From Sthenelais limicola (Eukaryota > Annelida > Polychaeta > Phyllodocida > Sigalionidae), in assembly GCA_942159475.1 (NCBI GenBank), contig OW804102.1:29952873-30016872 (forward strand): a stretch of 64,000 nucleotides of DNA, read 5' to 3'. The notes beneath the pieces were generated by a model. The model worked only from the letters and a program-made list of their open reading frames with translations. It was not told the origin of the DNA and did not search any database. Below, in pieces: positions 2,441-62,598 of the stretch (position 1 is its first letter; each line of letters opens with the position of its first letter). The translations under genes were made by a program, and so were the position numbers.

Positions 2441-2612
2441 CTTCCTTCCCTTGTCGATATGAGTCACTAAAATGTTGTATTTAGTCTAAAATTAATTAAT
2501 AATCATATTGAATGTATTCCACTAATTTTTCTGTAATATTTTAGACATGCTGAGAATGATCATTTGTAAAGTAATGAAATACTGTCAATAAAGAAACAAA
2601 CAAACAAACTAT
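2441..2612 (+). repeat. Possible LINE-type 3' end with AACA-rich tail
   Basis: A stretch ending in CAATAAAG directly followed by AAACAAACAAACAAAC. A polyadenylation-like signal followed by a short A-rich tandem tail is typical of 5'-truncated non-LTR retrotransposon ends. No coding remnant is visible, so the call rests on the tail alone. Confidence 0.3.
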
Positions 2613-2917
2613 AGGCATCGCAGACCGTACATGTCTGTTGTTATCCCCCCATTGAAAATGTTTACATCAATCTGTCTCTACGTTTTTGGTAAAAGGTAGT
2701 TGCCATATTCCTGAGGTTAGATATTCTTTATGTCAATCTTCCTTTGTACTGCTAGATTGGCTATGTTTTTAATAGCCTTCACGCTTTCTTTCTCTCTCCA
2801 TCCTTATATACCTATCTATCTATCCCAAGTATTGAGTCAGGTTATAACTTTGCCTTGCTTTAAAGTTGGTTTTCACGATATGAACTACTGAAATTGCAAG
2901 ATAAAAAAAGTATATTA
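2613..2917. other. Unassigned non-coding stretch
   Basis: No supported gene or repeat. A short CTATCTATCT run lies near 2812. Confidence 0.35.
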
Positions 2918-3322
2918 TGTGATGTGTCACAGATAAATGCGTCGTAAGTCACAGAAATGTTGCTTTAATGATGTTTTTCAACAGGAGCTTTCTCTTGGAA
3001 TGTACATTCTTTGGGTTGTTTTAACCTGTTGGTTGTATGAACACAATTACCAAATTTCAAGACTGTGTTATGAAAATATCTTGCAGTTTTTAAGACCATC
3101 ATATGTAGTATATTTAGATACTTTACTTTTGATTTGCCATATAAAGATATCATTAACTTTTTTCTCAAACTTAAAATGAGTTTTATTTGTGAGAACTACT
3201 TGTTAGTTTTCATAGAGGTTAACGTCAGTGACACTTACATGATCTCGTCTTTTTAAATATGATATAGTGTGTCTCAATATCGATGTTTTTGCGACTCGTA
3301 TTTCTGTGACACATCAGATATT
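2918..3322. mobile_element. Family D-like MITE (divergent interior)
   Basis: It begins TGTGATGTGTCACAGA and ends TTTCTGTGACACATCAGA, inverted versions of each other and of the family D termini (GTGATGTGT and ACACATCAC). Next to each end are remnants of the GTCACAAGTCGCA and TTTTGCGACT subterminal block. The interior differs from other D copies, suggesting a related element using similar ends. Confidence 0.55.
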
Positions 3323-3575
3323 ATATGACCTTTCGAGTATCGTTGTCGTGCACTTCTCTGCAGCGAGCCCTTACATAACTTATACATTATAGAAATATGG
3401 TCATTATAGAAAGCCAATTGATCAATTCACCCCATCCAGCTCCATTCATCACCTATGTCTCATCATGGCTTGCCATAGCCTGCCTTTTGACCCTGAGTTA
3501 TGCAAACTATGCCTATTAGGTATGAGTGGCTCACATTGATATCCGATGGATCACTGAGTGCATCTCTACCGGCCT

Positions 3576-3664
3576 TAATCGATCAAAACACTGCCTTAAC
3601 ATGGGAGCTTAATCCATAATGGTCCGACTCAATCTGCTGGCGACCACTCACTCACTAACTCACC
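3576..3664 (+). repeat. Family P repeat, copy 1
   Basis: It shares AATCGATCAA, CTGCCTTAACATG, ATCCATAA, CAATCTGCT and ACCACTCAC, in that order, with 4541-4628. Two local copies of an unknown dispersed repeat with no visible coding capacity. Confidence 0.5.
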
Positions 3665-4540
3665 ATCTCCCAGCCTTAAGGATCAGGTATTGTTAACCCT
3701 ACTGGTCAAAAATTCGGATTAGGACGGGACAATATAGAGAAGTGTAGTAGTTCTGCTACAATCCTTCGTGAGACCTTCCATAAAGGAATGGTTCTCTAGC
3801 TTAACACTAGAGGTGCCCTACGTTCGGGCCAGTGTATTTATGTTGTATCTCTCCATTAAATACTCTATTTCCCCTTATATCTTATCTTAAACCTTGTTGT
3901 AATATTCTAGTTGTTTCCTCAACCTCTTTCAGTCTATTTACTTGTCATCTTATTCGTTACCTGTTGCTTTGCAACTATGTGTTTGTTCTTTAGGGAGGTT
4001 TAGCTACCACTTTGTAGCAAGTTATGTTCTTCCCTACCCTATCCGGCTGTGACGGATTAAGGGCCGTTTTACGGACTGAGGTAATAAACTGGCATATGAG
4101 GAATTGGCCTTGTTAACTTGTTTATTCATTGTCGAGACTCTGCGAATCGCTACAGAAGTACATTATTCTTTTCAAAAAATAAAGAAAATAAAAAAAAATA
4201 CACTGTCTATGCAAAATTGACTCTTTTTTGCCAATTGCATAAGTGTTCCACTCGGAAGTTTATTCAAGCAACTTAAACATTGGCAGACTTAGATAGTTAT
4301 AGGATTATTTGGACATTTAAAAAAAAAAGATTAATCTATCATTATAGCCGCAATTGTTACAGTCGAAACTGCCAATGTAAAACTAAAACAAAAAGCAGGT
4401 AAACATTATTTGAGAGGTAATAAAACATGAATAAATACTGAAAAATTGGATTTCCCTTCATTTCAAAAGCTTTCCGTTCAGTATGGTGGCAAAATATTAG
4501 AAATAATATCATCAGTTCATTTAGCTGAGAACACCAACTT
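3665..4540. other. Unassigned stretch, possible retroelement 3' end
   Basis: Around 4035-4095 there is a GC-richer segment (GGCTGTGACGGATTAAGGG) followed by GGTAATAAACT and then AT-rich sequence. This resembles a retroelement 3' end but has no paired copy here and no coding remnant. Confidence 0.25.
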
Positions 4541-4628
4541 GTAATCGATCAAGACTGCCTTAACATGCGGGCTGGATCCATAACGGTCAGACCCAATCTG
4601 CTACCAACCACTCACCCTCTAACTCATT
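4541..4628 (+). repeat. Family P repeat, copy 2
   Basis: Second copy of the repeat at 3576-3664, same orientation, with substitutions and small gaps. Confidence 0.5.
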
Positions 4629-7270: not shown

Positions 7271-7575
7271 CCCATATACATATATAAAAGTTCATCCTAA
7301 TTTAACAGTAACCATTCACATTGACAGCGTTAACTTTACATCATTATTTCCAAACGGAATATTATTACTGTTGTTGCCAACACCCCTTCCAGGGATGAAA
7401 GGTACATTGTTAGCGACGAGTTTCTTGTGTGTCTCATTTATACGCCAGATCAAGGCAAACGTAGATGTCTGAAGAGGAGGCATGGGGGAGAAGGAGAAGG
7501 TAGTCCAAAGGGCTGGACAACAGGTAGAAGATGGTTTATTGTGTAGGTGCAGCTAAATCCTGCCCAGCCTTATAT
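7271..7575. other. Unassigned non-coding stretch
   Basis: No supported gene or repeat; a chance open frame crosses it. Confidence 0.35.
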
Positions 7576-7810
7576 GGGTAAGAGTTTCACATAATGTACA
7601 ATTCAACTTCGCCAATCTTCTCAAATAACCCACATTTCAGACGAAAATTAAGTTCAAAAAACAGTTCAACCTAGCCAAACAGATTGCTAGAATCAATGCA
7701 ATGCCAAATATACTCGAATTTACCTAGTATTGAACAAATTGCAGCCTAATTTAGCAGAATTTACTAAATGTGTAGAGCGGCCAATTGTACTTTTTCTGAA
7801 AACCTGACCC
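7576..7810 (-). mobile_element. Family A MITE, full length
   Basis: Starts GGGTAAGAGTTTCAC and ends TTCTGAAAACCTGACCC. It has the blocks CAACTTCGCCAATCTTCTCA and TCGAATTTACCTAGTATTGA typical of the A1 variant, and it is flanked on the right by a TATATATATA run. Confidence 0.9.
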
Positions 7811-8248
7811 ATATATATATATAGTAAGTCTGTGTACCAAAATTCGTACTTATGTTATTTGTATAATATTTACATTTGACTACAAATTGATTGATTGGTA
7901 ATGCGTTATTGCAAAACATGTTAGATAGTCAGGGGAATCTTTTTCACAATTTGGATGTTTTCAGGCCAACCTGTTTTTACAATTAATTACAGACTATTAT
8001 ACAGGTAGGCTATAATAAACATTATCATCAATGACAACAGTGGTCATAACTATCTTACAAAGTTTGTTTTTTGCAATCAATTTTATTATTTAATTACTTA
8101 AGTTAGCTGTTATATTACCATTGTTTTTTTTATTAAATTAAAATTGATTTGATTTTTTAAAGTCATCCTTCTCACAGAGTACATCTAACATACAATCATA
8201 TTGATATCACCCCTGCATTTCGGTGTCTAGTATTCACGATATATATAT
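7811..8248. other. Unassigned AT-rich stretch
   Basis: Very AT-rich with T and A runs. No repeat ends or coding signal. Confidence 0.35.
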
Positions 8249-14994: not shown

Positions 14995-15056
14995 ACTCAA
15001 GGTCTAACCTGCCCTGATTCTGTACTAGTAGCGAGGCCAACCTTTTTTTTTTTTTT

Positions 15057-15413
15057 AACAAATTTTATTGGATCCATTCTCATACAATGATAATTCCATG
15101 GTAGTCCAGAAAACATATAATGTTATCTCATAATAAATAAAATATTTTAATTATTTAAGTTGAGTCATTTATACATTAAGGGTTTCAAAATACCTTGTTG
15201 TTATAGGTTACAAGTTTCAGTTGGTGAATACATCGGGTACCTCTACTGAGGAAAATACATACCTACAATAAACACATAGATTTTTTTGTTGTTTTTTCTC
15301 CTCAAAATTATAACATAGTCCGCCACATGACAGATAAAAGACACGTCGCATGCAAGATATTATATACATTTGATTTGATTTGCTCAAGCAAATGATAGGG
15401 ACATGTTTTAGAA
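15057..15413 (-). other. LINE 3' UTR
   Basis: Sequence between the ORF2 stop and the A tail. The terminal part, reading AATAAAATTTG on the minus strand, and an internal AGGAGAAAAAAC block have counterparts in the fragment at 25303-25650, marking it as family 3' UTR. Confidence 0.65.
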
Positions 15414-16256
15414 TCAACCATACCAATCATCAGTTGATTTAAGATGACTTTTTATGTTATCCCAGGATTTCAAACGAATAATAGACGGAAGACTATTCCA
15501 TAAGGTTGGTCCAATATAGTGAGGGGATCGCACTACTTTCTCTAGTTTTGGTACCATGACCTTCATCACCGGTCCTTCGTTTAATCTAGTAATCACTGGT
15601 ATATCACTTAGGTTTTTCTTATCCAGTCGTTTTCTATACATTATTTGCATAAGTGCAATCTTTGAACGTTTTTCTAGAGAATCGATCCGACATTCGTTAC
15701 ACAATTCAATTTTATCCCTAGGGTCATTGAAATATACAGTTTTTACTGCATTATATATGATTCGCTGAAGCTTTGTTCTTATGTCAACGCTAGCCATAGA
15801 TGCGAAAAGATTACCGTACTCTAGTAAGGACAAGATATGGCTTTTTACTATTATCTTTGCCATTTTTACAGTGAGATACTTTCTTATACGCTGAAACTGT
15901 AGTAGCTTATACATGGCTGATGATTTCATTTTTATCAAATGACCTTTCATGGTTAATTTATCGTCGATCTTGAAACCGAGATAGTTCACTACTCTTGTTT
16001 TTACAACCTCCTGGCCTTTTAGATATATTTTTGCCAGGTTATCAAATTTTACCTTTTTCAATCTATTAGTCGTTCCCAATAGTTGTATCTGGCATTTTTT
16101 TACATTTAGATTAAGCATGTTATCCAACATCCACTTGTTAATTGAGTTCATAACCAGCTGGGTGTGGATCATACATTTGTTTAGATCTGGGCCAGTTATA
16201 CTGACCGCAGTATCATCTGCGTAAAGAGTCAGATTTACATTCATATCAGGGGCGGC
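15414..16256 (-). pseudogene. LINE ORF2, C-terminal part (RT motif C to end)
   Basis: This continues the reverse transcriptase of the ORF2 beginning at 20991. It resumes a few residues before the catalytic YADD box (16212-16223), followed by the thumb region with NYLGFKID, KSHILSLLEYGN and the C-terminal segment containing GPTLWNSLPS, which is conserved in CR1/Jockey-type LINEs. It stops with TDDWYG. The 46 or so codons open upstream of it belong to the inserted sequence, so this part has no start of its own. Frame is intact apart from the insertion, implying the element was coding-competent until it was split. Confidence 0.85.
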
Positions 16257-16928
16257 GATTAGATTTTTTATACAAGAGGATCCCGAGTGACACGGCACCT
16301 GCCGTCCGATGCGGGAAAGGTGAGAGAATACTACGTCTGCTGCCTGGCTGTACGGGCGTCGCACGAGGAAGGCAGTCTTCAGCTTTAACACCTACCGCTG
16401 GTCTAGTGTGCCCGGCGGCTGCGCTAGCTTTTTTGTACAGCTGTATTACATGTTTTCGCGCGAGGGGGCTGTATTCCCTTCAATTGGGATCTAAAATAGC
16501 CAGGCGGTGTACATTTCTCTATTTATACTCACAGTATTACAAATACCTCTAATATAGAAGGATGGCCTTATACTTAGAATACCTAGATTTGAAATATCGG
16601 CCCTGTAGAAGCGGTAATATCCATGCAGAAAAGTTGGTTATTTTCAGATCTTGTTTACTAGTAAATCGCTTTCTTTCCTCTGTACATAGCATCCTTTGTT
16701 GTATTAGGACATGTTATGAATGTCAAGACTATATGTATCTAAAATTTTACCACATTACAAGGTCTTTTAAAAAGTGTTAAGATTCATGAATCATGCGTCC
16801 ATGCTTGTGCATAGGAGGCACATCCCGCCGCGCGTCCGGGAAATGCGTCCTGATTCGCACAACTCCTCTTGCTCCTCCCGCGCAAGCTGAGCGGCCGTCT
16901 GGCTTTGGACACAAACAGTATAATAATA

Positions 16929-17407
16929 ACCGTATTTTATCAATAGAACGCCAGGACCCAAATAAACGCCTGCCCTGAAAAAAAACGCTGGGTCCAGATA
17001 AAGCCTTATTGACATAAGAGATGGAGAGATGGAGGGATGGATGGAGGGAGGGAGGGAAGGAGAGAGAGAGATAGAGAGAGAGAGGGAGAGGGAGAGGGGG
17101 GGTGAGAGAGAGAGGACAGAGAGAGGGAGACAGAGAGAGGGAGAGAGAGAGGGGGGAGAGGGGGAGTGAGAGAGAGAGGACACAGAGAGATAGAGAGAGA
17201 GGACACAGAGAGAGGGAGAGAAAGAGAGAGAGAGAGGCCGCCTATAATTAATTTATTTTGAGAGAGAGGGGCCGCCTATAATTATGTTTTATTTTGAACT
17301 TCATGAATGAATTCATTTTGGACTCCAACTGTTCCTTTACTCTAGCTCTGCTTAAAATTATAAGAAAAAAAATAAAAGCCTGGGCGTTTTATCGGTGAAA
17401 TACGGTA
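16929..17407. mobile_element. Family U inverted-repeat element
   Basis: The left end ACCGTATTTTATCAATAGAA and the right end GGCGTTTTATCGGTGAAATA then CGGTA are imperfect inverted repeats, followed inward by ACGCCAGGACCC and complementary CCTGGGCG blocks. The interior is filled by GA-rich simple sequence. Non-autonomous, no coding capacity. Confidence 0.7.
17019..17237. repeat. GAGA/GGAGG purine-rich simple repeat
   Basis: Over 200 bases of GA-rich sequence with GGATGGAGGGAGGGAGG, then (GA)n and GGGGGGTGAGAGAGAG phrases. The minus-strand Ser/Leu/Pro open frames here are artefacts. Confidence 0.9.
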
Positions 17408-17535
17408 CTTTTCATTTAGTGTTATACCTTGCGCCAGTTAAACTTACGTCGCCAAACTTGCGTCGGCATGACAACGCGCTACAGTTCCGTAGGTAATGTC
17501 ACTGACATATCTTTGATCAAACAGTTTCAATTAAT

Positions 17536-17590
17536 TACCGTATTTCATCAATAGAACGCCAGGGCCCAAAATAAATGCCTGCCCTGAACA
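17536..17590 (+). repeat. Family U left-end fragment
   Basis: TACCGTATTTCATCAATAGA, ACGCCAGGGCCCAAAATAAA and TGCCTGCCCTGAA repeat the left 55 bases of the element at 16929. Confidence 0.7.
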
Positions 17591-18761
17591 TAGAGATACA
17601 TGTTTGTTATCAAACATGACTTGAAATCAAGACTTGTACAAGTATATCATGCAGTAATAAATATTGATTTGATGTTATGCTTATTCTGCTTAGATCCGCC
17701 ACTTTTTTTTATCTGCCCCTGCGTGGCTGTGGACTATATACACAATTTGGGAAGCCTGTGGCAAATATTTCAATCTTATTTGCAAGGCAACGCCTCAATT
17801 CGTTCATGGTTTTTTTTAGAAAAATAACATTTTCACGTTTTCTTGTATACCGACCAAAATATCATTCCCACAGGTTTGTGCATATTAAATCATTTGTAGA
17901 CAACAAAATTACTGTTCATTTGATGTATAACACCTTATTGTACCCCCAATAGCTTAGAAGTTACAGCTTTCGGTAAACAAAAAATAGTGTCGGAAATTAT
18001 TTTAAATATCGGTGAATCGGCAGTGAAATCGGTCCCATAACTTTCAATGACAGTTTGTTGATATAACATTATGAAACTACAAATATTTCATGCAGCTTGG
18101 ACGCTAGTAGGCTTGAATATAATACAACCAATCATTCTCAATACATGGTACTTCTTGTCATAGGCTCCCTATTGTGTGACTTGTTCTCACCAGGTGGCTG
18201 GCGGCACTTGTTTTTCACTAGGTGGTGTGACAGGTCACTGCATTGCATTTATAATTTCTTTAACAATAAAGGTACCGCTAATACACTAATGTGGCATTCA
18301 TGCACTATAGATATTGTCCAACAAATACTTATGAATATCATAAGTGATATTCTTCTAGAGTTTATATGTATAATGTATGTTGGGAATCGACCTGATCAAA
18401 ACACCCACATAACTGTACATATGATTGTGGCTACTCAGCTGGGAGGGTCTAAACTCACCAACCATCCAAATGATTCATACACAGAGGTATGTGAACATAC
18501 TGATGATAAATGATGAATAAAAGGACGCAACCTATGCTGTTGTACCTTTAAAAGCTATCTGGGCTGTAGATGTTCAACCTAAGGTTGCCTTCAGTTTGCT
18601 ACTCTGACTGAACATATTAGGCAAACAGTACTTCATGGTAATGGTAGAGGAGTAAATTTATACTAACAAATTTTCATAATAACAATTAGCAAATATTTAA
18701 GTTGATCCCAAGTAATCTGAGCCCCACCCACAATACCCTACCTGCCCTAGGCATACTAAAA
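17591..18761. other. Unassigned interior of the insertion
   Basis: Two overlapping open frames near 17600-17950 and one at 18097-18513 have no family resemblance or splice context. I would not call any a gene. Confidence 0.35.
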
Positions 18762-18892
18762 TGTGCAGCCAAATGTGCAACCAAAGTGCAGCCGAATGTG
18801 CAACCAAAGTGCAACCAAAGTGCAGCCGAGCCAAAGTGCAGCCATTGTGCAGCCGGATGTGCAAGGCTGGCTTACACTGGCTGCACTTTTCC
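18762..18892. repeat. Tandem GTGCAGCC-type minisatellite with inverted ends
   Basis: About ten irregular units of 10-12 bases alternating GTGCAGCC and GTGCAACC with AAA spacers. The outer ends ATGTGCAGCCA and TGGCTGCACTT are inverted copies, so the block may be the terminus of a foldback transposon that caused the interruption of ORF2. Confidence 0.6.
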
Positions 18893-18954
18893 CTGAATCC
18901 GGATGTAGTCCATGGCCGTGCAAGGGCTGCGCATCCTAAGTGCATCAGCGCAAC

Positions 18955-20991
18955 CTGGGATAGGTCGTTGATATATATTAGAAATACTATCGGGCCAATA
19001 TGACTACCTTGGGGTACGCCTCTGTTTATAACAATGCGGTCAGACACATAATTATTTATAGTTGTTCTTTGGGCCCTGTTATGGAGATAGTTCATGATGA
19101 TTTTGATCAAGGAGGGATTTAACTTATAATAGACCATTTTGTCATATAGAATTTTGTGGTCGATACAGATAAAGGCTTTCGATATGTCGTAGAAGGATGC
19201 TACTGTCAGCTGTCCATTATTAATACCATGTATTATGGGTGACAGAAAATCAAAAAAGCTTAGATTAGTTGAGTGGTTAGCTCTAAAACCTCCTTGAGAG
19301 GGACCAAATAGTTCATTCGTCTCCATATGATCGACTAAGGCAGTACATATGATTTTTTCGAGTATCTTAGATAGGGTCGGAACTATGGCGATAGGTCTCA
19401 AGTTATTAAAGTATCTCAGGTTTCCCTCTTTGGGGATAGGTGTAATTGTGTACTCTTTCCACTCCCCTGGCATAACACCTGTGGCCATACAACGCTTCAT
19501 CAATAGAGTGACATGGGGTGTGAGCTGTTGTAGGAATAATTTTAGTATCTTAGTGTTTATCCAACTAAGGCCACAGCTTTTGGAAGTATCAATATCATTT
19601 ATCAGATCTTCAATTTTCTCGTTAGTAATAAGAGTTTTTGTGGACATCATTAGTTTCGGTGCATCATCAAGATAATTCACGTGAGATTGGGACGACTCCC
19701 TATCAGTTGAACCAAATTTGCTGAAAAACTCATTTAGCTTATTAGAAGCTTCAAGACCATTTATTTCTCGATTATCATGTATAAAGGAAGTTGGTAGAGA
19801 TTTAGAACCTTTCCCGAAAAGATCGTTTATGTTTCTCCAAAATTTTTTGCTATTATTAGCAGAATTTTGTAGGTTTGTTCGGATGGATTCCCTTTTCTGT
19901 TGTTTGATTTGTTTACTGATTTCTCTCCTAAGAGCAACAGCCTGTTTAAAATATTCATCAGAGTTGTATCTCCTTGATTTTTTGAACAGCTTGTCACGGT
20001 CCCTTATTTTCTTTAAGACAACGTTTGGTAATTTGAAGCTACCCTTTCTTACAGTTCTTATTTCCTCAACAGGACAGCAACGATCTAAGTACTTTATAAT
20101 ACATGATTTCATATTGGTCCAGATTTCCTCTGTGGATTTCATAGCATCCCCAAAGCTAAATTCTACATCACGATACGGTTGTAAGTAGTTTTCAAGATGA
20201 GCTTCATTCAGCTTATTATACCTTCGACCCTTACGTACATCTCTGTGAACCTGTTCCTTTCCTTTTTTAAATTGTGAAAGGAGACATAGATGGTCAGAGA
20301 TATTTACATTTAGCACCCTGGATGATAAGATATGCGGATGGTCCGTGAACATAACATCGATTAAGGTACCAGTATTACCTGAGTATCTAGTAGGTTTATC
20401 GATACATGAAACAAGGTTAAAGTCAGATAACATTGAGACAAAATCATTTGCCTTTGGCTCTTTCTTGTCCAGTAAGTTGATATTAATATCACCGCAAAGA
20501 AAAATATTATGATGTTTTGACATTTCTTTTAGGCCTGAGATTGATGACCTTAACTCATTTATGAACAGGGCTTTGTCGCCCGACGGCGGGCGATATAGGT
20601 TCAGTAAGCAAAACTTCCTTCTCAATTCTGGTTTTACCTCAAGACATTGTAACTCTATGTTGCGATTACAGATATTTAGGACATTATATTTCCATTTATC
20701 AACTGTACAGTCATCTCTAAAGAGGCAACATAGCCCTCCTCCATTCTTTTTTACAGCTGGGTCATCGGATTTACGATCATACCTGCATATACTATAATTT
20801 GAGTCGAGGAGAACATGAGAATCGAAGTCGGAGTTATTCAGCCATGTTTCTTGGATACACAATATTTTTACAAATCTACAGAGAAGAGTACTATGGAGCT
20901 CATATACTTTGTTTCTTATCGATCTGATATTCATTGATAATATTCCCATGCCCTTGAGCTCAGATAGACATTGCGGATTATCCGATTCCAT
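18955..20991 (-). pseudogene. LINE ORF2, N-terminal part (APE endonuclease + RT fingers/palm)
   Basis: Starts at the ATG at 20991 and encodes 679 LINE residues before foreign sequence takes over. Residues 15-240 are an apurinic-like endonuclease for nicking the target: MNIRS, IQETWL (46-51), NLYRPPSGDK (131-140), CGDININL (166-173), IDVMFTD (211-217) and the catalytic SDH (232-234). After a basic linker, the reverse transcriptase begins near 455: PIPK (518-521), NLRPIAI (530-536), GFRANHST (568-575), motif A with YDISKAF (Asp602) and motif B GVPQGS (658-663). One oddity is that the Asp normally following KAF is Ile. Motif C (YADD) lies beyond the insertion, so neither half can make a full polymerase. 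Confidence 0.88.
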
Positions 20992-21698
20992 CACGTTGGA
21001 AGGCTATAAACACATACAATGCATGACAATCTTTGTATTGAGGTCTAAATGAGACCGCGAGGCAGGCTATATACCAAGAGTCGGGGTAGCGGTGCGTAAA
21101 AACAAGAGGAGTAATGTATAAAAACAGATATGGCCATAATAGGCTATCGAACATATGGGCACGTCGAGCGTAAACTCAGAACAACAACACACTTTATGTA
21201 CGGTTGTGCTTCAACCAGGACATCATGACTTTCAGTAATACACACGTAATGGGAACTAAACATATATACATAAAGAGAGGCTTCTACTTACAGTAATATG
21301 GTAATCCAAACCAGAAAGCACTTTTACGCTAGCCTTAAACTTGCGAGATGGCCGAGTAGGCCGCCATGTTGGGTCTGCATGTGCGCCCGCAGAACACAGT
21401 ATTATCAAAAAATGAAAACGTACTAATTACTCATTAATTACCTAACAATATTAGGTCAACCTATTGGGTTATAATTTACCAGGTATACTAGTAATTATTA
21501 GTCTACTCATTCAGTCAAGAATAACTGAAAAGTGTCGGTGATATTTTCTGCCGACCACTTCCGGAAGTAGCGTGGTTTTGTTTACTACACGTGTTTTAAG
21601 GTGGGAGCGATGTTATCAACTTTTAACCTCTAAGAAACATACAATGGAAATAATTACGGGCATGACAACTATACACAGACGATCAATATGGTAAGTAC
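20992..21698 (-). other. Spacer between LINE ORF1 and ORF2
   Basis: About 700 bases with scattered stops in all frames. It contains AACATGGCGG-type and other GC-richer phrases near 21350-21390 on the minus strand, reminiscent of a LINE promoter or 5' UTR. An internal promoter, or a boundary between two elements, are both possible. Confidence 0.45.
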
Positions 21699-23399
21699 TT
21701 AATTCTGTTTGTATTTGGCTTTCCTCATTCTGTTGACCGATTCATTTAGAGCGTCTTTAATGTTTTGCGAACCGGCGATTCGGTCGTGTAGGCCTAGCTT
21801 TGGGTGAGGCGTGCTACTTGCGAGTAAGTCTTTCTTGTCTATTCTCAACGCAGTCATATTTTGTAGGGTTGAGTCAGATAGCAGGAGGGACGACATATCA
21901 TTTTCCAAGTCAGCTTCTACATCCATGTCAAGGGTTTGTCTTTCTTCGGCGGAAGGGAAACGACGGAAATATCTCGGCTTCGCTTTAGCTTGGGAGTTAG
22001 GGCTCAGGTCCTTCACATCTATAGGCGCGGGGGGAGGAGATAGCATGGTAATACTAGCCACCTCATTCCTGTATCTTTCCCTTAGTTCAGCTCGGACGTT
22101 CATCAGTAATTGGCCTTGTCGGTTAAATCCATCCCAGGTGTGAGTTTGTAACTGCACATTCCCTAGGTATACACCACATGCCCATTTTAGGTCATTTGTT
22201 GCTTCAATGAGCTCCATTTCATTTGTAGCTAGGAGTAACTGTCTGAGGTCCTTATTTTGCTCGAACTTTGCTAGCAGGAGAGAATGCATGTAGGCTTCTT
22301 CGCGCTTTTCCCAATCCTCATCTGAGATAAGTTTAGAGCCTTCAGCTTTTATCTCGTAAGGGTCCCGTAATTTAGCAATGCGTCTGGCAGCAGGGTTGTT
22401 TCCGGTCTTTAATGCTTTAAAATAAAAAAAAGCATGTTCTACTGAGTAGAATGGCAGTCTATTTGCAGTGAACTCACATGGGTAAAGATTAGAGGGCCAT
22501 GCATACGATGACTGATATGCCAAACCCAGGGCCACCTTTTGAACTTTGATGGTGGACGGGGCAACCTTTTCTGGTAGGAGTTCGAATTCGTCGGCACCAT
22601 AGGTGCGTCCCTTGACTAGCACCTTATCACCTTTGACTTTGGCTGTGGTATCAACATTTTCATGAATAGCTTTTTTAGCAATTTGTCGCAATAGCCCACG
22701 ATTTCTTCGGACTTCAGCATTGGTGTCGTCCTCAAAGGACCAGTATTGGATCGCTGGGTATCTTTCAGAACTAAATTTGCTTTTATCGAAAAGAGATCCT
22801 TTTCGTGACATAAATAGCTTTTTGTCTTTCAACGATTGAAACCTTACGTTTATTGGATCCGGTCTTCTTCGCCCATTTTCTTTTTTCTTTGACACGATGC
22901 GGTAGGTCTCATCCAATTGATCGTTCTTGAATGTTGGTATGACCATTCTAATAATTTGCGCTGCAGTATTTATTATGTTTTCGTCACGTTTTGCAAGAAC
23001 ACCGTTGAAAATGACACAGTTCTGTCTTAATTTGGTATCCACTTCATTATTGATTGTACGCTGCCTCTTTAATTCATGCGTTAAGTACTCCACATGAGTT
23101 TCTAATGATTTTATTCTTGTTTCCAGCAAATCTGAACGATCGTCCTGCTCGTTGTTGCGTATTATCTCATCAGTGAGATTAGTGGCAACTTCTGCACATA
23201 ATTTGTTCGTGTCGAGGAGGGACAATTGCGTTGCTTCCTGTGAGGCTTGCTGATTATCCATAGTACCAGGATTTGCGTCACCGACTGTAGGAGAACTCAT
23301 CATAGAACTTACTTCAATAGAGTCAGGAGCTTTCTTGGCATTTGGAGATGAACCTGTAGGACCTTCGTTTCGCCTTTTCCTTGTGGTCACTTTGGACAT
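21699..23399 (-). CDS. LINE ORF1 protein: coiled coil, L1-ORF1-like RNA-binding region and NADAR domain
   Basis: An intact 566-codon frame starting at the ATG at 23399 (A at -3). Residues 1-60 are polar, with a basic TRKRR nuclear-signal-like start. Residues 85-125 form a likely coiled coil (LLETRIKSLE, VEYLTHELKR). Residues 126-275 resemble the RRM plus C-terminal domain of L1-type ORF1 proteins: NCVIFNGV, ETYRIV, PDPINVRFQSLKDKKL, then a charged helix and KVLVKGRTYG. Residues 297-440 are a NADAR (YbiA-like) domain: YPSNLYP, YSVEHAFFYFKAL, an Ala/Gly segment, LLAKFEQN, LLLATN..LIEAT, LKWACGVYLG, WDGFNRQGQLLMNVR. The acidic, Ser-rich tail (441-566) is unrecognised. In LINEs ORF1 binds the element RNA and forms particles; NADAR members act on ADP-ribosylated guanosine. 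Position and strand tie it to ORF2 20991-15414. Alternative: an independent host gene, less likely given the RNA-binding half and absence of introns. Confidence 0.88.
   Translation of the reverse strand: MSKVTTRKRRNEGPTGSSPNAKKAPDSIEVSSMMSSPTVGDANPGTMDNQQASQEATQLSLLDTNKLCAEVATNLTDEIIRNNEQDDRSDLLETRIKSLETHVEYLTHELKRQRTINNEVDTKLRQNCVIFNGVLAKRDENIINTAAQIIRMVIPTFKNDQLDETYRIVSKKKENGRRRPDPINVRFQSLKDKKLFMSRKGSLFDKSKFSSERYPAIQYWSFEDDTNAEVRRNRGLLRQIAKKAIHENVDTTAKVKGDKVLVKGRTYGADEFELLPEKVAPSTIKVQKVALGLAYQSSYAWPSNLYPCEFTANRLPFYSVEHAFFYFKALKTGNNPAARRIAKLRDPYEIKAEGSKLISDEDWEKREEAYMHSLLLAKFEQNKDLRQLLLATNEMELIEATNDLKWACGVYLGNVQLQTHTWDGFNRQGQLLMNVRAELRERYRNEVASITMLSPPPAPIDVKDLSPNSQAKAKPRYFRRFPSAEERQTLDMDVEADLENDMSSLLLSDSTLQNMTALRIDKKDLLASSTPHPKLGLHDRIAGSQNIKDALNESVNRMRKAKYKQN
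22080..22511 (-). other. NADAR domain coding segment inside ORF1
   Basis: Codons for residues 297-440. All hallmark blocks are present and in order: the SN motif (YPSNLYP), the VEH helix (YSVEHAFFYFKA), the LL.KF helix, the ELIEAT block, the WACG strand and the closing LMNVR.ELR helix. No frameshift or stop, which suggests selection for function until recently. Confidence 0.85.
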
Positions 23400-23660
23400 A
23401 ATCAGATCTAGTGCTTGTTTACCTCAACCATTGTGTGTAATCCAAGATGGCTGTTGTTGGCGGGACCGTTCAAAGCACTTAGTTATCGCTCAGGTTAGGA
23501 CGGATTTGCAATAACTCTCGGATACAGTCATATAAGGCATAATCAATCACTCCAGGATGATCAGTTGGACTAATTAGACAGTTTGTGCGGATAAAAAGTA
23601 TTCCCAGTTCTGTGTGCACACGAAAATAGTCAGGTAAGTGGACCTAGTGTTTTTCACGTC
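23400..23660 (-). promoter_or_regulatory. Putative LINE 5' UTR/promoter region
   Basis: Sequence directly upstream of ORF1. On the minus strand it contains GCCATCTTGGATT and GCGGGACC-like GC-richer phrases, typical in flavour of internal LINE promoters (an AAGATGGC motif is a YY1-like site). The outer boundary is not visible. Confidence 0.3.
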
Positions 23661-23689
23661 TTACCGTTTCGGCAACCATGTTCATTCCA

Positions 23690-36778: not shown

Positions 36779-36886
36779 GGGTCCGATCGTCAGAAAATGC
36801 GCAATTGGCAACTCTGCACATTTAGAAAATACTCTACACATTTAGAAAATTCAGCTAAATTAGGCTGAAAAAGTAATGAGTACCGG

Positions 36887-37613
36887 TGTAGCAGTTCTAA
36901 TGTACCCCCCATCAGATGTACCCCCCGGTATAACTAACCTAGGTCTAATGTACCGGGGGTACATTTGACCTAGGTCCAATGTACCCCCGGGGGTACTTTA
37001 GACCTAGGTTGGATATACCCCCTCCAGTTTTAATGTACCCCCGGGGGTAAAATAGACCTAGGTCAAATGTACCCCCACCAGGTTCAAAGTACCCCAAAGG
37101 GGGAAACTAAACCTAGGTCTAATATACCCCAAATATTTGAAAATAACCAAGTACTGATCGAAACATTAATTCTTTAAATTATGACAATAAAAGTAATAGT
37201 ACATACCTAATAGTCAGAACTGAATAGATTTTAGTAATGAATTATTGTGATATGAGAAAAGTATTTAATTCAGGATATGAATTACACAGAGTGCTGTTCT
37301 CATCACATCCTGTAGCATTTTATTAGATATTAAATTATTGACATAATATTATAATAGTGACAATTCTACTTTTAGGCATTACATAGAGCAAAAATCGTAA
37401 ATTCCAATCTACAATAGTCCAATTCAATTTTAAATGTGGGGTTGTAGCATAATCCTAATTTGAGGCAAGTAATGGAATCAATAGAATTTACAAAATCCAA
37501 GATTATCAAAGAAACAAAGGGGGGTAATTTGAACCTAGAGGGGGTCATTTAAACCTGAGGTCTAAATTACCGGGGGGGTACATTAGATCGGGGGGTAATT
37601 TAGAACTGTTACA
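36887..37613 (+). mobile_element. Family B non-autonomous DNA element, copy 1
   Basis: Terminal inverted repeats TGTAGCAGTTCTAATGTACC (left) and TAATTTAGAACTGTTACA (right), flanked on both sides by CCGG. The left third is an array of CCTAGGTC and TACCCCCGGGGGTA palindromes alternating with short AT spacers; the right end mirrors it more simply. 727 bp, no open frame of note. Nearly identical to 45482-46210. Confidence 0.9.
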
Positions 37614-37647
37614 CCGGGTATATCTGAGTATACACTCTATACGCGTC

Positions 37648-37678
<31 letters not shown>

Positions 37679-39335
37679 AACGTTTTTTATTCTTACATTC
37701 AGATAGGTACATCTAGATGTTTCCATCAAATTTCGTTTGTATCCTATACATAACTTTCCATATTATACTTTCTACACAACAATAATGAAAAATAAGATAT
37801 ATTATATTATCAATGAAACAGGTATAAATTCTACGTTCTGATAATCAACATATATACAGTATGAATATATAAGTATTAATGTGCTGATACACTAGGCAGT
37901 TGAGTTATATCACATAGTTGTGTGTGACTACAAGTATAGCATATTCTCATTTTATATTTTACATCTTTTATAGCATATATTCTTATTATATAGTCTATTG
38001 ACTATTGGTGTGCTTACCTATGTACCAGGTCATAATCTTAAACTATACATGTGTTAGTAATGGGACATCCCTATATTGTAAGTTCCATAATTTACTGTGG
38101 TTTCTTTATGATGTAGTTGATTATTTCTGTATATGCCAGTTGTATATCAGTGTATATGGGTGTAGTTTCATACAAAACCGCACTCCTGATATGCTATATT
38201 ACATTGCTTATATTTATTTGTGAACATAATATATTCTGGTTAGGCCGTCAGTTTCATACAAAACCTTTCGGCTGGGCTTGAGGTGTTGTTATTAGAAGGA
38301 AATGCTTAAATAAATAATTTGTTAGTATATTTTTATCTTCAATTGTTTGTATATTGGTGGGCAGCTTATTCCATTCTCGGATGGCTCTATTATGAAAATT
38401 TTGATAGAGTTTTTCAGTTCTATAAGTGATTTCCTTAATATTTCTTCTATTCTGTGAATACCTGGTTTGTCTTGTTTTCTTTATTATATTATTTTTATTT
38501 TGGGCTATGTCAAATGCATATTGTATCAGATGCAATTTCCGCCTATCCACCAGTGGTAATAGTCCTAATTCTTTCTCATATTTAGTAGTGTTGGTTCTTT
38601 TAGGTAATTTTCTTATTATTCTAATGGCTCTGTTTTGTATTATCTGCAGTTTATCAGTTAGTTTTTTTGTACAGGAGTCATAAAATATATCTCCATAGTC
38701 GATTAGTGGGAGAATAGTGGTTTTAAAGATTAGGGATGATATTGGGGCTGTTAGAGCTTTCCTGATTTTTTGCAATTGGTAAGTTCTGTGGTTTGCATTA
38801 GACATTGCTTGCTGGATTTGTTTTTTAAAGGTGAGTGTATTATCTATGTGCACTCCTAAATATTTATATGTTGTGACTGGCTCTAGCTCTTCATTTTGGA
38901 TTGTGTATCGGATGCTTCTGTTGTTATCATTTTTATTTCTCATAGGCTGTATAATCATACTGTTTGACTTTTTTGCATTAATTGTTATTTTATTTACCTT
39001 ACACCAGTTCTCTAGTTTGTTTAGATCTTCTTGTAACAGGATTGATTTATGGTTAGTTGATGTCTCCGTATATAATATAGTATCATCAGCGTACATTTGC
39101 CAAGACTATTGTTGATATTATGGGGTAGGTCATTTATGTATAAGAGGAACATTAATGGTCCTATTGTGGTTCCTTGTGGTATTCCGCAGGAGATTTTGCT
39201 GGCTGTGGACTTAATATTATTACATAGTGTTTGCTGATAACGATTTTCAAGATAATTCTTTAATAATTTATTTAGGCCTGGTGGTTCACAGTGTCGAATG
39301 CCTTTCTTGTAGGCAGCGGCTTTCCATAGGGTTAA
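37648..39335 (-). pseudogene. 5'-truncated LINE with RT remnant and GTT-repeat tail
   Basis: On the minus strand, KAFDTVNH (RT motif A) appears near 39300, a frame-disrupted LNKLLKNYLENR leads to GIPQGTTIGP (motif B, about 39160-39190), then after another frameshift near 39096 YADDTILY (motif C) and 280 open codons. These include YKYLGVHIDN, LPLIDYGDIFYDS, RAIRIIRKLPKR and REWNKLPTNIQ, to the stop at 38254. The 3' UTR ends in (AAC)n, seen as GTT repeats at 37648-37678. No endonuclease part. Two frameshifts make it dead. Confidence 0.85.
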
Positions 39336-42630: not shown

Positions 42631-43265
42631 ATGTGATGTGTCACAGAGAAATGGGTCACAAAAGATAGATTTTGAGATATGATCATATTTGAAAAGATGC
42701 CATCAAGCCGATTTCACTAGTGGTAAACTAATAAGTATTTCTCCATTTTAAGTTTGTTGTTTTTATTTTTGAAAAAAAAAAGTTAGCAATATTTCTGGGT
42801 GGACATTTACTAGTTAAGTAGCTAAATATACTCTATAAGATGACCTGAAAAAGTCATGAATACATTTAATACACTTTCTTCACATTTGGTATATGGGTCA
42901 GATTTTCCGAAAATGTACAATTGGCAGTTGTACACATTTAGTAAACTCTGCTTAATTAGACTGCAATTTCATCAATACTAGGGAAATTCGAGTATATTCG
43001 GCATTGCATTAATTCTAGCAATCTGTTTGGTTAGGTTCAACTGTATTTTGAACTTTGTTTTCGTCTGAAATTTGAGTTATTTGAGAAGATTGGCGAAGTT
43101 AAATTGTACATTTTCTGCAAATCTGACCCATATGTATTCATACTGCAACCAGCGTTAAGCACTCTAAAATGAAAACATTCCCACAAAGACATCTCATTAA
43201 AAAAATCTCATTAAAAAATATATATGTTGCGACTTGTCACTCAATTGTCTGTAACACATCACAAA
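42631..43265 (+). mobile_element. Family D MITE interrupted by a family A MITE
   Basis: Left end ATGTGATGTGTCACAGAGAA, right end TTGCGACTTGTCACTCAATT then TAACACATCACAAAT. The D interior is broken after CACATTTGGTATA by the A element at 42895-43129 and resumes TATGTATTCATACTGC, exactly as in intact D copies. Confidence 0.85.
42895..43129 (+). mobile_element. Family A MITE nested in family D
   Basis: GGGTCAGATTTTCCGAAAAT and TTTTCTGCAAATCTGACCC ends. Flanking sequence TATAT/ATAT compared with the uninterrupted D sequence supports a TA (at most 4 bp) target duplication, as for Tc1/mariner-type elements. Confidence 0.92.
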
Positions 43266-45460: not shown

Positions 45461-46381
45461 AGTGGCCCGTTTATAAGCCGGTGTAGCAGTTCTAATGTAC
45501 CCCCCATCAGATGTACCCCCCGGTATAACTAACCTAGGTCTAATGTACCGGGGGTACATTTGACCTAGGTCCAATATACCCCCGGGGGTACTTTAGACCT
45601 AGGTTGGATATACCCCCTCCAGTTTTAATGTACCCCCGGGGGTAACATAGACCTAGGTCAAATGTACCCCCACCAGGTTCAAAGTACCCCAAAGGGGGAA
45701 ACTAAACCTAGGTCTAATATACCCCAAATATTTGAAAATAACCAAGTACTGATCGAAACATTAATTCTTTAAATTATGACAATAAAAGTAATAATACATA
45801 CCTAATAGTCAGAACTGAATAGATTTTAGTAATGAATTATTGTGATCTGAGAAAAGTATTTAATTCAGGATATGAATTACACAGAGTGCTGTTCTCATCA
45901 CACCCTGTAGCATTTTATTAGATATTAAATTATTGACATAATATTATAATAGTGACTATTCTACTTATAGGCATTACATAGAGCAAAAATCGTAAATTCC
46001 ATTCTACATTAGTCCAATTCAATTTTAAATGTGGGGTTGTAGCATAATCTTAATTTGAGGCAAGTAATGGAATCAATAGAATTTACAAAATTCAAGATTA
46101 TCATAGAAACAAAGGGGGGTAATTTGAATCTAGAGGGGGTCATTTAAACCTGAGGTCTAAATTACCGGGGGGGGGTACATTAGATCGGGGGGTAATTTAG
46201 AACTGTTACACCGGGACGTGTTTCAAAGCCTATCTCGAATACAGACGACCGGGGCTGTGAAGGTCATGAAAAAATAAAATCCTCTAGAATTTGATTCTAG
46301 ATTAAAAGCCTACCTCAATTGCAAGCCGGGGATACAGTGGGGTCAAAACAAATACGATCCCGGTCTTATGAACGGGCCACT
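45461..46381. mobile_element. Family C inverted-repeat element containing a B element
   Basis: AGTGGCCCGTTTATAAG at the left and CTTATGAACGGGCCACT at the right are inverted repeats with one mismatch. The B element occupies 45482-46210. Without it, C is about 190 bp and non-coding, with AAAGCCTATCTCGAAT and AAAAGCCTACCTCAATT as an internal direct repeat. Confidence 0.82.
45482..46210 (+). mobile_element. Family B non-autonomous DNA element, copy 2
   Basis: Same ends as copy 1 (TGTAGCAGTTCTAATGTACC and TAGAACTGTTACA), same CCGG on both sides, same palindrome array. It differs from 36887-37613 at only about a dozen positions by eye, including one G-run length change, so both copies moved recently. 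Confidence 0.92.
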
Positions 46382-52192: not shown

Positions 52193-53675
52193 AGATTCAT
52201 TATACAAGCTTTCAATCATGAAAATAAAAATAAAATCGAGTCATAAATTTGAGTTTTATCGGTAATCTTAGTAAAGAAAACCCAGATTAGTTGCCATGAC
52301 AACCCCACGTGAATCACTAGTGAAATATGTGCTATGCCTAAATCAATCTAGACAGTCGGCACCCCCCGCTTCTTCCTTGGAAGAAGTCAGAATGACTCTA
52401 TTTACAATTTCGCACGGTGCACAGACTACTAGTGTCCAACGATATATACTCTTATACCATGTGGTTACTTCTCTGCCTGCATTCAATAATTTCCCCGCTG
52501 AGAATGTCTATTGATGCATGGAATACTTAGTTTATGCCTATACCTACAACCTAGCGTACTTACATTGTCGATTCAGGCACTCACACTTCCACAATCCATT
52601 TTCGTTTCAACCTCCACACTCAACCCACACAGCTACATCCACGCCATTGACCATTCCGATCCCTTGTTCCATTCCGTACGAGCCGGAAGTCACTTCAACG
52701 TAATCAACGTAACCGGCAAATGGGATTCGAAATGGATAGCGCTGTTTATTTACTGAATAAACAGCGCCGAGGTAGTATAGGGGTGGGGGTGGGGTGGGGT
52801 GGGGGTGGGGTAGGGTGCGTGGACGGGACCTCGTCGGCAACTGTTTTTCTTTATTTATACAAGCAACTAGCCTAAAAGTCAGATCCCAACACAACCCAAT
52901 CCAGCGGTATGCTTTCTGGATACACTGTTTGCAGAGCAATGTGTGTATAATAAAACGTAGCAGCCAAGAACGATCCGGTCAATGAGTCATTACATTCAGC
53001 AACCTATCAAATTGTGGACATCAAAACCAAATCTAATCGTGAAAGGATCAAGAGGGTACCAATGCTAAGAAAAAGGAGTTGAACGAAGCTCGTTTCCCCT
53101 CCCCATGTTGGCACCTTTAAGTGAAAATCTGATTTGATTACATGTTAGAACAATAAACTATTATATTTCATGTGAAATTTGATCTGAATGGCTGTAATGT
53201 TTATTGTGATTGTTTGACGCGCTGGACTGGTGGTTGATCTTTATTTTTGTTTTTACGTCAACTTCTTTATTCAATATTATATCAACAAAGTTTGGTCTTG
53301 GACAGATCCCATGCAGTGTGATTATTACCTAATGACCTGCAATTATAAATAGGACAACGGCAAAGATAAATATAACCCATCAATTGGCTTACTTTAGAAT
53401 TATATTGATTTCATTGACAGAAGTCGACTTGATCAAGAGAAGTACCCTTGTTAAAGCTTCACGCTCAGTTAACGTAGGTCAAAAACTGAACATTCTCTAC
53501 TTCTTGTTCCATTCTTTACAAACACATATAAAAGTAATTTGACCCAAATTTTGGAGGATTTGTTTCAGTTGCTATTGCTAAAGGGTTTCTAAAACGTCCT
53601 CATGTGTATTTATTTATCTTATTTCCATCGAAAATACAATTACAGGAAACTTTTGTTAATCAGCAGTTCTTCCAT
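52193..53675. other. Unassigned stretch with a perfect hairpin and a G-rich run
   Basis: At 52739-52767, GCGCTGTTTATT and AATAAACAGCGC form a perfect 12-bp stem around TACTG. At 52778-52820 a GGGGTGGGGGTGGGGTGGGG-type run could form a quadruplex. No gene supported. Confidence 0.5.
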
Positions 53676-54028
<353 letters not shown>

Positions 54029-54610
54029 TTGGAGAACCAGCCCGAATCCTTTCATGGGATGGCGTCAGTTTTCTCTCCATGATTTTAAATCTAGATCTTG
54101 TCGCTGCCAGAAAACCAGTAGAGTTTTGCAACAAACAATTCCACAGTAGTCATGGACAAAGGTGGTACTCTGCTATATTTGATTAACTTTTATAATACAT
54201 TCGTATAATAATAGATATCTAGCACAGTAGATCTTTATCATACTAGTGATTCTCAGAAGTAAACTAGTTTTTTTTGTGATAATAACAGTCAAGCTGTTTG
54301 TACATGTAGTATTCTTATTCAATCAATAAAATATTGGTCTGACCAGATTAACGTATTCTTTGCTACCGATTTGAATGCTTTAGGGTCAACTATCCCATGG
54401 ACCATTGTCTGTAAGGAGTTCCAAGAGAATGGTATTCTATGCAAAAAAGACTTTCCCATCTGTTAATTTTTGGTATGATTTGTTTTAGTGGTTTACGTCC
54501 CATTGCAAAGTTTCTTGTATCTAAATTCCTGATATCTATTCAACTTGGGTCTCCCGTTAGACCATGGCCCATCTGCAATACATACATGTAGTCTTCTTCC
54601 ATGCTTTATA
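54029..54610 (-). pseudogene. LINE 3' fragment: C-terminal RT tail and UTR
   Basis: On the minus strand LQMGHGLTG and LDTRNFAMGRKPLKQIIPK, then after a frameshift FLHRIPFSWNSLQTM and AFKSVAKNTLIWSDQYFID before a stop. These parallel the fragment at 33840 residue block by residue block. About 300 bases of 3' UTR follow, ending AAAGGATTCGGGCTGGTTCT then CCAAAATAAATAAA into the TAAA array. An in-frame stop and a frameshift make it non-functional. Confidence 0.7.
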
Positions 54611-61784: not shown

Positions 61785-62321
61785 TGTATAAGAGTCACTT
61801 TGCCAGAATGTGTACAATTGAGCTTCAAACAAACATTTTACAAAATTCTCAAACCAATATCATACAACTGACTTTCCTACCCATATAACAATAGGAGATA
61901 TTGTATGTTTGTCAAGTGAAATTACCCGGATTAATCTAGGGTAATCTAACCTATTGAACTCTAATACAATCATCGATCAAGATGTACAACTGATTAATTG
62001 AACTCCTTCCCATATATCCCAGTCTTGTAAAATTCCAGGTTGGTTTAAGAAGAAGGGAAACAGATAAGCCGCATCGATGTTCAACTTCTTAATCCCCTAA
62101 GGGACAGGAGAAGGAATAGCAACATGCCAAAAAGGGAGAAAAATATATTGATATAAAGTCGGAGGGATTACATAGAGATTGTAGGGGTGGACTCAGATTG
62201 CCTATAGAGCCGATGCACTTACAGATAGACAGTGGATGGGATACACAGTGGCCTCTAGATTCAACCTTAGACAACAGGAGGTCAAGGAGACAGAAAAATA
62301 AAGATTCACGTGGCGATATAT
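61785..62321. other. Unassigned non-coding stretch
   Basis: AGTCACTTTGCCAGAATGTG then TACAATTGAGCTTC near 61793 may be one more eroded A left end. Otherwise nothing. Confidence 0.35.
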
Positions 62322-62556
62322 GGGTCAAATTTTCAGAAAATGTACAATTCAACTTCGCCAATCTTCTCAAATAACCCATATTTCAGATGAGAATAAAGTT
62401 TAAAATACAGTTCAACCTAGCCAAAGAGATGGCTAGAATCAATGCAATGCCGAATATACTCGAATTTACCTAGTATTGGCCAAATTGCAGCCTAATTTTG
62501 CAGAATTTACTAAATGTGTACAGCTGCCAATTGTACATTTTGTGAAAATCTTACCC
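62322..62556 (-). mobile_element. Family A MITE, A1 variant
   Basis: GGGTCAAATTTTCAGAAAAT and ATTTTGTGAAAATCTTACCC ends. Full-length interior with TCGAATTTACCTAGTATTGG. Confidence 0.93.
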
Positions 62557-62598
62557 ATATAAGGAAGTTGGTACGGGTGGTTGTGAGGGGTGACTAAA

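Follow-up and report, generated by a model that had tools for sequence, protein, structure and literature searches.

The NADAR-bearing LINE and its reading frames

The window analysed here, a 64,000-nucleotide stretch of the genome of the annelid Sthenelais limicola (contig OW804102.1, positions 29,952,873 to 30,016,872), carries on its minus strand a copy of a long interspersed nuclear element (LINE) of the apurinic/apyrimidinic endonuclease (APE) type. The first open reading frame (ORF) of this element, ORF1, fuses a coiled coil and a probable region of RNA recognition motif (RRM) and C-terminal domain (CTD) to a YbiA-type NADAR domain, and its second, ORF2, encodes an endonuclease (EN) and a reverse transcriptase (RT). 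The element comprises the following features, given in window positions:

15043..23689, minus strand: LINE copy, ~8.6 kb long with its 2.7-kb insertion, delimited by homology with sibling copies and by a 14-nucleotide A-run at 15043-15056
21699..23399, minus strand: ORF1, 566 amino acids, with N-terminal part, coiled coil, RRM/CTD-like region, NADAR and C-terminal tail
22545..23150, minus strand: coiled coil (about residues 84-125; helix in the model) and RRM/CTD-like region (about residues 126-285; weak profile match)
22080..22511, minus strand: NADAR domain, ORF1 residues 297-440 (Pfam)
E321, K328, K351, W363, E399, D403 and W406 of the ORF1 NADAR: residues mapped to the ADP-ribose site (8bau alignment and published residue list)
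18958..20991, minus strand: first part of ORF2, APE-type endonuclease and RT up to the insertion (Exo_endo_phos_2, 2.1e-8; RVT_1, 7e-20)
16282..18957, no strand assigned: 2.7-kb insertion within the RT domain of ORF2 (alignment with sibling copy L046)
15414..16281, minus strand: second part of ORF2, end of the RT and C-terminal region (RVT_1, 2.9e-7; 99% identical to L046)

ORF1 is a single unbroken frame of 566 codons, from ATG to TAA, running from 23399 to 21699, and an earlier note on this DNA, made from the letters alone, was right to read it so. The full NADAR domain that the note placed at residues 297-440 is recovered by Pfam (PF08719, 101.4 bits, cut-off 35.1, E = 8.3e-29), by NCBIfam (TIGR02464, 82 bits, cut-off 73.7) and by sequence comparison with PDB chains (8bau, 3e-8; 2b3w, E. 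coli YbiA, 1.1e-6), the sole further matching chain being an SRP19 protein (0.17, residues 170-242). An AlphaFold model of ORF1 has a mean predicted local distance difference test score (pLDDT) of 58.6 and is little reliable outside the NADAR, with values of 81-96 in blocks of residues 301-400. When this model was searched with Foldseek, 8bau (2.9e-6) and 2b3w (4.8e-6) were the only two of the four listed matches below 0.001.

The earlier note also described a coiled coil and an L1-ORF1-like RNA-binding region ahead of the NADAR, the limits of which we set by hand. The first is plausible, given a long helix in the model. The second is weakly supported: a profile of nine ORF1 sequences had LINE-1 ORF1p as its best, weak match in the PDB (E = 0.02), the 25 Pfam families listed, out of 44, included no L1 ORF1 family, and a single-sequence model of this region was poor (pLDDT 48).

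ORF2 begins with an ATG at 20991, just downstream of ORF1 and on the same strand; this much of the note's description of the neighbouring endonuclease/RT frame stands, but the insertion interrupts ORF2 in the window copy. The first part of ORF2 is 99% identical to the intact sibling L046, and both edges of the insertion share 4 bp of sibling sequence (the L046 matches 2583-4601 and 1347-2586 overlap). Homology with sibling copies L017-L020 stops at 23683-23689 and that with L046 at 15044; no convincing target-site duplication of the window copy was found, a 7-bp match being present outside the mapped 5′ end. The order of an APE endonuclease followed by an RT within ORF2, together with dispersed copies that are often 5′-truncated and have an A-rich 3′ end, places the element among APE-type LINEs. 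A profile of seven ORF2 sequences matched LINE-1 ORF2p at 2.6e-28 over EN and RT and R2 at 6.2e-21; the single ORF2 sequence matched R2 proteins, at 1.5e-8 for the best of them, whereas LINE-1 chains were absent among its matches up to E = 0.1. The C-terminal part of ORF2 presumably resembles the Jockey/CR1 group more, which we take as a lead only.

Linkage of the NADAR domain to ORF2

We surveyed the 1.13-Gb assembly (161 contigs) for further copies. The ORF1 protein gave at least 78 matches, a floor since the best 77 of 5650 candidates were scored. Five copies, the window's included, are full length, open and 98-100% identical, and the others fall into groups at ~71, 59, 51 and 44-50% identity, mostly with one open frame. 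At 29 of the 30 loci fetched, the flank downstream of ORF1 contains the ORF2 endonuclease. At the exception, L034, ORF2 lies ~9 kb downstream, and a 612-bp stretch beside ORF1 recurs at 100% identity directly before the spacer of the distant ORF2, as would fit an inserted element with end repeats. ORF2 identity declines in parallel with that of ORF1 (~98, 64, 55, 48 and 42%), and ORF2 is an unbroken frame of 951-964 residues in four of the five downstream stretches fetched, the frame of L046 being counted without its first residues, which fall outside the fetched stretch; that of L048 is broken.

The reciprocal search with ORF2 gave at least 67 matches, with the best 66 of 18054 candidates scored. 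Among the 67 listed, 55 start within the first 13 query residues and the other 12 lie deeper in ORF2. Judged by eye, 33 of the 55 adjoin an ORF1 match, and for the other 22 we inspected ~3 kb of upstream sequence. ORF1 pieces are present in 12 of these; nine without such a piece match their NADAR-bearing siblings through the ORF1-ORF2 spacer as far as a break, which is a 5′ truncation or, in L067, the insertion common to L034 and L067; and one, L057, starts at ORF2 itself. The upstream pieces of L060 and L064 consist of the C tail alone and stop short of the NADAR. In L058, which is among the 12 with ORF1 pieces, the ORF1 beside a window-family ORF2 is a decayed NADAR-bearing one from a different family (29% identity), and this ORF2 has probably lost its own ORF1. 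Thus, among the 55 ORF2 matches that reach the ORF2 start, no NADAR-free ORF1 of the window family was seen.

The earlier note had set the joint occurrence of NADAR and this ORF2 across copies as a test, and had named an ORF2 of this kind without the domain, ORF1 being a separate host gene, as the case that would overturn its claim. The 29 of 30 loci and the 22 upstream stretches bear the linkage out and contain no such case. With the purifying selection and the conserved residues described below, we are nearly certain that the domain is a NADAR and that it belongs to the element.

Constraint on the domain and its active site

From the 30 loci we took the 27 ORF1s longer than 500 residues and reduced them to 10 representatives less than 97% identical. 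Mean pairwise identity among these is 0.43 in the N-terminal part, 0.55 in the coiled coil, 0.62 in the RRM-like and 0.66 in the CTD-like region, 0.66 in the NADAR and 0.39 in the C tail, and 50 of the 144 NADAR positions are invariant. Ratios of nonsynonymous to synonymous divergence (dN/dS) were calculated by the Nei-Gojobori method for ten chosen pairs, of which four were usable (NADAR dS below 2) and five were saturated. In the four usable pairs the ratio is 0.038, 0.047, 0.021 and 0.016 for the NADAR, 0.018, 0.007, 0.019 and 0.089 for the RRM, and 0.117, 0.117, 0.077 and 0.254 for the C tail; a fifth pair, with a NADAR dS of 2.3, gave 0.16. The corresponding pN/pS ratio over ORF1 within five groups of close copies is 0.26, 0.18, 0.09, 0.03 and 0. 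The dN/dS comparison that the earlier note had proposed thus reveals purifying selection on ORF1, NADAR included (0.016-0.047). On these identities and ratios, the NADAR and the RNA-binding part are under similarly tight constraint while the ends of ORF1 drift, and the domain is among the most constrained parts of ORF1.

The active site was examined against the structurally characterised NADAR of Phytophthora nicotianae, in which E43, K50 and E125 are important (equivalent to E88, K95 and D171 of E. coli C7) and D130 and W133 likewise contact ADP-ribose (PMC11543638; this and the other papers given by PMC number are cited from excerpts). By our own count through the 8bau alignment, with a constant offset of two (E125 is chain residue 127), these five residues align with E321, K328, E399, D403 and W406 of ORF1. 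Conservation was assessed in 38 ORF1 proteins, from the 30 loci and eight deeper ones, of which 37 include the NADAR (27 distinct; L042 ends before the domain). E321, W363, E399 and W406 are present in all 37, and K328 in 36, with Arg in its place in L077. On these residues, we consider the ORF1 NADAR probably competent for catalysis. We had suspected the Asn of the LLMNVR motif of marking a dead catalytic site, and dropped this idea when the 8bau numbering put the catalytic Glu at E399.

The position equivalent to E125 also separates NADAR subtypes. It is Glu in 37 of 37 proteins; neither the Asp of the BC4488 type, characteristic of DarT1-associated NADARs, nor the His of phage gp30.3 was seen among them. 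By the rule given in PMC11125620 and PMC11543638, Glu at E399 therefore assigns the window NADAR to the YbiA subfamily.

Divergent lineages

A scan of the assembly with PF08719 placed all 150 scored places above the cut-off, 148 of them without an internal stop; these are the best 150 of 5561 loose candidates and may overlap the 78 ORF1 matches. Of five loci fetched, three (L075, L076 and L079) encode ORF1s of 603-658 residues with the same domain order, together with an EN-RT ORF2 26-30% identical to that of the window family. A fourth, L077, has a 780-residue NADAR frame followed by an SGNH/GDSL-like ORF, and no ORF2 was found near it in the fetched stretch.

The window itself contains, at 38254-39311, the 3′ portion of a second LINE, which belongs to another deep branch and is 27-48% identical to the ORF2 of the NADAR-bearing element. 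Its relatives were collected by scoring 138 of 20217 candidates, and seven upstream stretches were taken; four of the seven (L081, L082, L086 and L087) have an ORF1 with a NADAR (Pfam E = 8e-15 to 1.1e-21).

Across eight lineages, NADAR distances correlate with endonuclease distances (Mantel r = 0.964, with 0 of 10000 permutations as high), although this correlation owes much to the separation of the window family (five lineages) from the other three. Since the NADAR diverges in step with the endonuclease and the domain order is the same in deep lineages, the fusion looks old and mostly vertically inherited. A single early gain with vertical descent would explain these patterns best, and repeated gains are possible.

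Some NADAR frames have other surroundings. At L078 (1249-1728; G000:C1:94854000-94856800) a stand-alone NADAR frame of 160 residues lies beside a 222-residue ORF that has no Pfam match and seems to resemble part of a mobile-element DNA polymerase; two NADAR frames of 162 residues on contig C1 (66983187 and 89380390) score like that of L078. In LINE lineages other than that of the window, an SGNH/GDSL-like ORF, recognised by eye, follows a NADAR ORF1 at L058 (1116-1412), L077 (2883-3599), L082 (1260-1895) and L087 (1067-1795, minus strand); Pfam matched this family weakly in L077 (E = 0.018) and in neither L082 nor L087.

Relation to described systems

The earlier note knew of no description of a NADAR in a LINE ORF1. 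One is in print: a Repbase query showed that several Tx1 LINEs of the Pacific oyster (Crassostrea gigas) have the domain in ORF1, and processing of RNA intermediates was suggested (PMC12477816). These oyster elements, which we could liken to ours through their published description alone, have a YbiA-family NADAR in ORF1 as the window element does. The pairing is thus already known, while the signs of function reported here are much stronger than those in the excerpted PMC12477816, to which we add the copy survey, the measurement of selection, the conservation of active-site residues and the deep lineages. Among the papers listed from an open-licence library, which lacks most subscription papers, we found no description of the pairing besides PMC12477816, and words starting with retro or transpos occur 0 times in PMC11543638, PMC11125620 and PMC11833690. 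In layout the window element shares with L1-type LINEs two ORFs, an EN followed by an RT and an A-rich 3′ end, and differs from them in the additional NADAR and C tail of its ORF1.

NADARs have been described in other selfish elements. PMC12477816 places one in a Gypsy lineage of Ectocarpus; a long terminal repeat retrotransposon with a NADAR is a retrotransposon too, but has the domain in Pol rather than in a LINE ORF1. Animal RNA viruses are likewise selfish RNA-based elements with a NADAR, for which a counter to host ADP-ribosylation has been proposed, and unlike a retrotransposon they hold it in a polyprotein beside an RNA-dependent RNA polymerase; the word retrotransposon occurs 0 times in that paper (PMC9503650). 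The bacterial toxin-antitoxin pairs DarT1-NADAR and YarT-YbiA have the NADAR fold and active-site set in common with ORF1 (PMC11543638, PMC11125620), and their reversal of guanine ADP-ribosylation offers the model for the mechanism proposed below. These pairs lie in operons with a partner transferase, whereas only ORF1 and ORF2 were recognised within the window element, no search aimed at DarT having been made in the window.

Protein database searches with ORF1 and with its NADAR domain returned nothing at E = 0.001. Against viral contigs, ORF1 had no relative, and the NADAR alignment found eight loci at 27-33% identity. A collection of genome contigs gave no match, which does not amount to absence, since bacterial NADARs exist. 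In plasmid and phage records (36 and 166), the NADARs among the matches listed are at most ~40% identical to that of the window, and no recent donor is therefore seen there.

Possible functions of the NADAR

The role of NADARs in animals has been called unclear (PMC11125620). In the window element, ORF1 holds the position of the LINE RNA-binding protein. We tentatively propose, at slightly less than even confidence, that the ORF1 protein (ORF1p) clears guanine-linked ADP-ribose from element RNA or cDNA by means of its NADAR. ORF1p would coat the element RNA and so tether the hydrolase to the ribonucleoprotein particle (RNP), where it would remove ADP-ribose from guanine bases of that RNA, or of the cDNA and the nicked target. 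Such a lesion would block translation or reverse transcription, and its removal would let the element survive a putative host or environmental guanine-directed ADP-ribosyltransferase. The proposal is plausible because NADARs, which act on guanosine-ADP-ribose in DNA (PMC11543638, PMC11125620), are reported to be alone among hydrolase families in reversing ADP-ribosylation of guanosine bases of RNA, the macrodomain and ARH-like enzymes tested having failed on this substrate (PMC11833690). Some marine animals do have chemistry of this kind, since guanine-N2 ADP-ribosylation of DNA has been described in six edible clams (PMC11209040). That the domain acts on the element's own nucleic acids is a possibility we hold with reserve, and we rate it as less likely than not that a whole deep radiation of LINEs has retained in ORF1p, from the common ancestor onwards, a guanine-ADP-ribosyl hydrolase that is still catalytically intact and functions within the RNP.

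Several observations weigh against the proposal. The RRM assignment in ORF1 is weak, D403 is Asp in only 32 of the 37 NADARs, and the counterpart of R79, which touches the pyrophosphate in the Phytophthora enzyme (PMC11543638), is by our own count Ser355 in ORF1. The Arg that replaces K328 in L077 may matter, because K95R of E. coli C7 retained hydrolysis in vitro and lost the ability to rescue cells (PMC11543638). NADARs unlinked to DarT1 are reported to be weaker antitoxins (PMC11125620), so the substrate is not readable from sequence. Finally, no ORF1 was recognisable in three (L083-L085) of the seven stretches upstream of relatives of the second LINE.

Among the alternatives, the strongest, which we still judge unlikely, is that the NADAR acts on soluble ADP-ribose derivatives, on NAD-derived immune signals or on ADP-ribose attached by PARPs to host proteins or to ORF1p. 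ZAP belongs to the PARP family. According to excerpted literature, it restricts human LINEs, which speaks for a target of this kind. The NADARs assayed in the excerpted work act, however, on guanosine-ADP-ribose in nucleic acid, and fusion to a LINE ORF1 would itself favour a nucleic-acid target. It is less likely that the domain has been kept as a binding or structural module, a binder of ADP-ribose or nucleic acid, rather than as an enzyme. In the Phytophthora structure (PMC11543638), the residues that correspond to E321 and E399 contact the distal ribose as well, so that their conservation alone is no proof of catalysis, yet the whole residue set is kept across the compared lineages, whose NADARs are as low as 35-48% identical, and none of these lineages has lost the catalytic Glu. 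A metabolic role, for example the N-glycosidase activity of YbiA-type proteins on riboflavin intermediates, is very improbable, for although TIGR02464 (riboflavin biosynthesis intermediates N-glycosidase) matched above its cut-off, a retrotransposon would have no evident reason to keep such an activity in ORF1. Least credible of all, and in our view ruled out by the copy survey, is that ORF1 represents a host gene with a NADAR or was fused by chance beside a LINE; we found nothing in favour of this reading, and against it stand the five copies at 98-100% identity, the many diverged open copies with an ORF2 behind them and the parallel divergence of NADAR and endonuclease.

If the removal of guanine-linked ADP-ribose by ORF1p is borne out, the element would carry an enzyme devoted to reversing the ADP-ribosylation of nucleic acids, and the modification of retroelement RNA or cDNA with ADP-ribose would be a real antitransposon pressure in invertebrates. 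Such a pressure on transposons has not been met in descriptions so far, and ORF1p would be a ready probe for it. If the NADAR gives no such protection, the many NADAR variants of the element would still form a large natural collection with which to search for the true substrate.

Further repeats in the window

Three other features of the window are repeats. A 738-bp duplicate that contains tandem units, at 36883-37618 and 45478-46215, is 98% identical between its two copies. A short repeat of ~245 bp with inverted ends, which contains GGGTCAGATTTTCAGAAAATGTACAATT, lies at 7571-7815, 42890-43133, 62317-62561 and elsewhere, and has many copies in both orientations. An ATTT microsatellite of ~89 units occupies 53674-54029 and is a source of spurious long ORFs.
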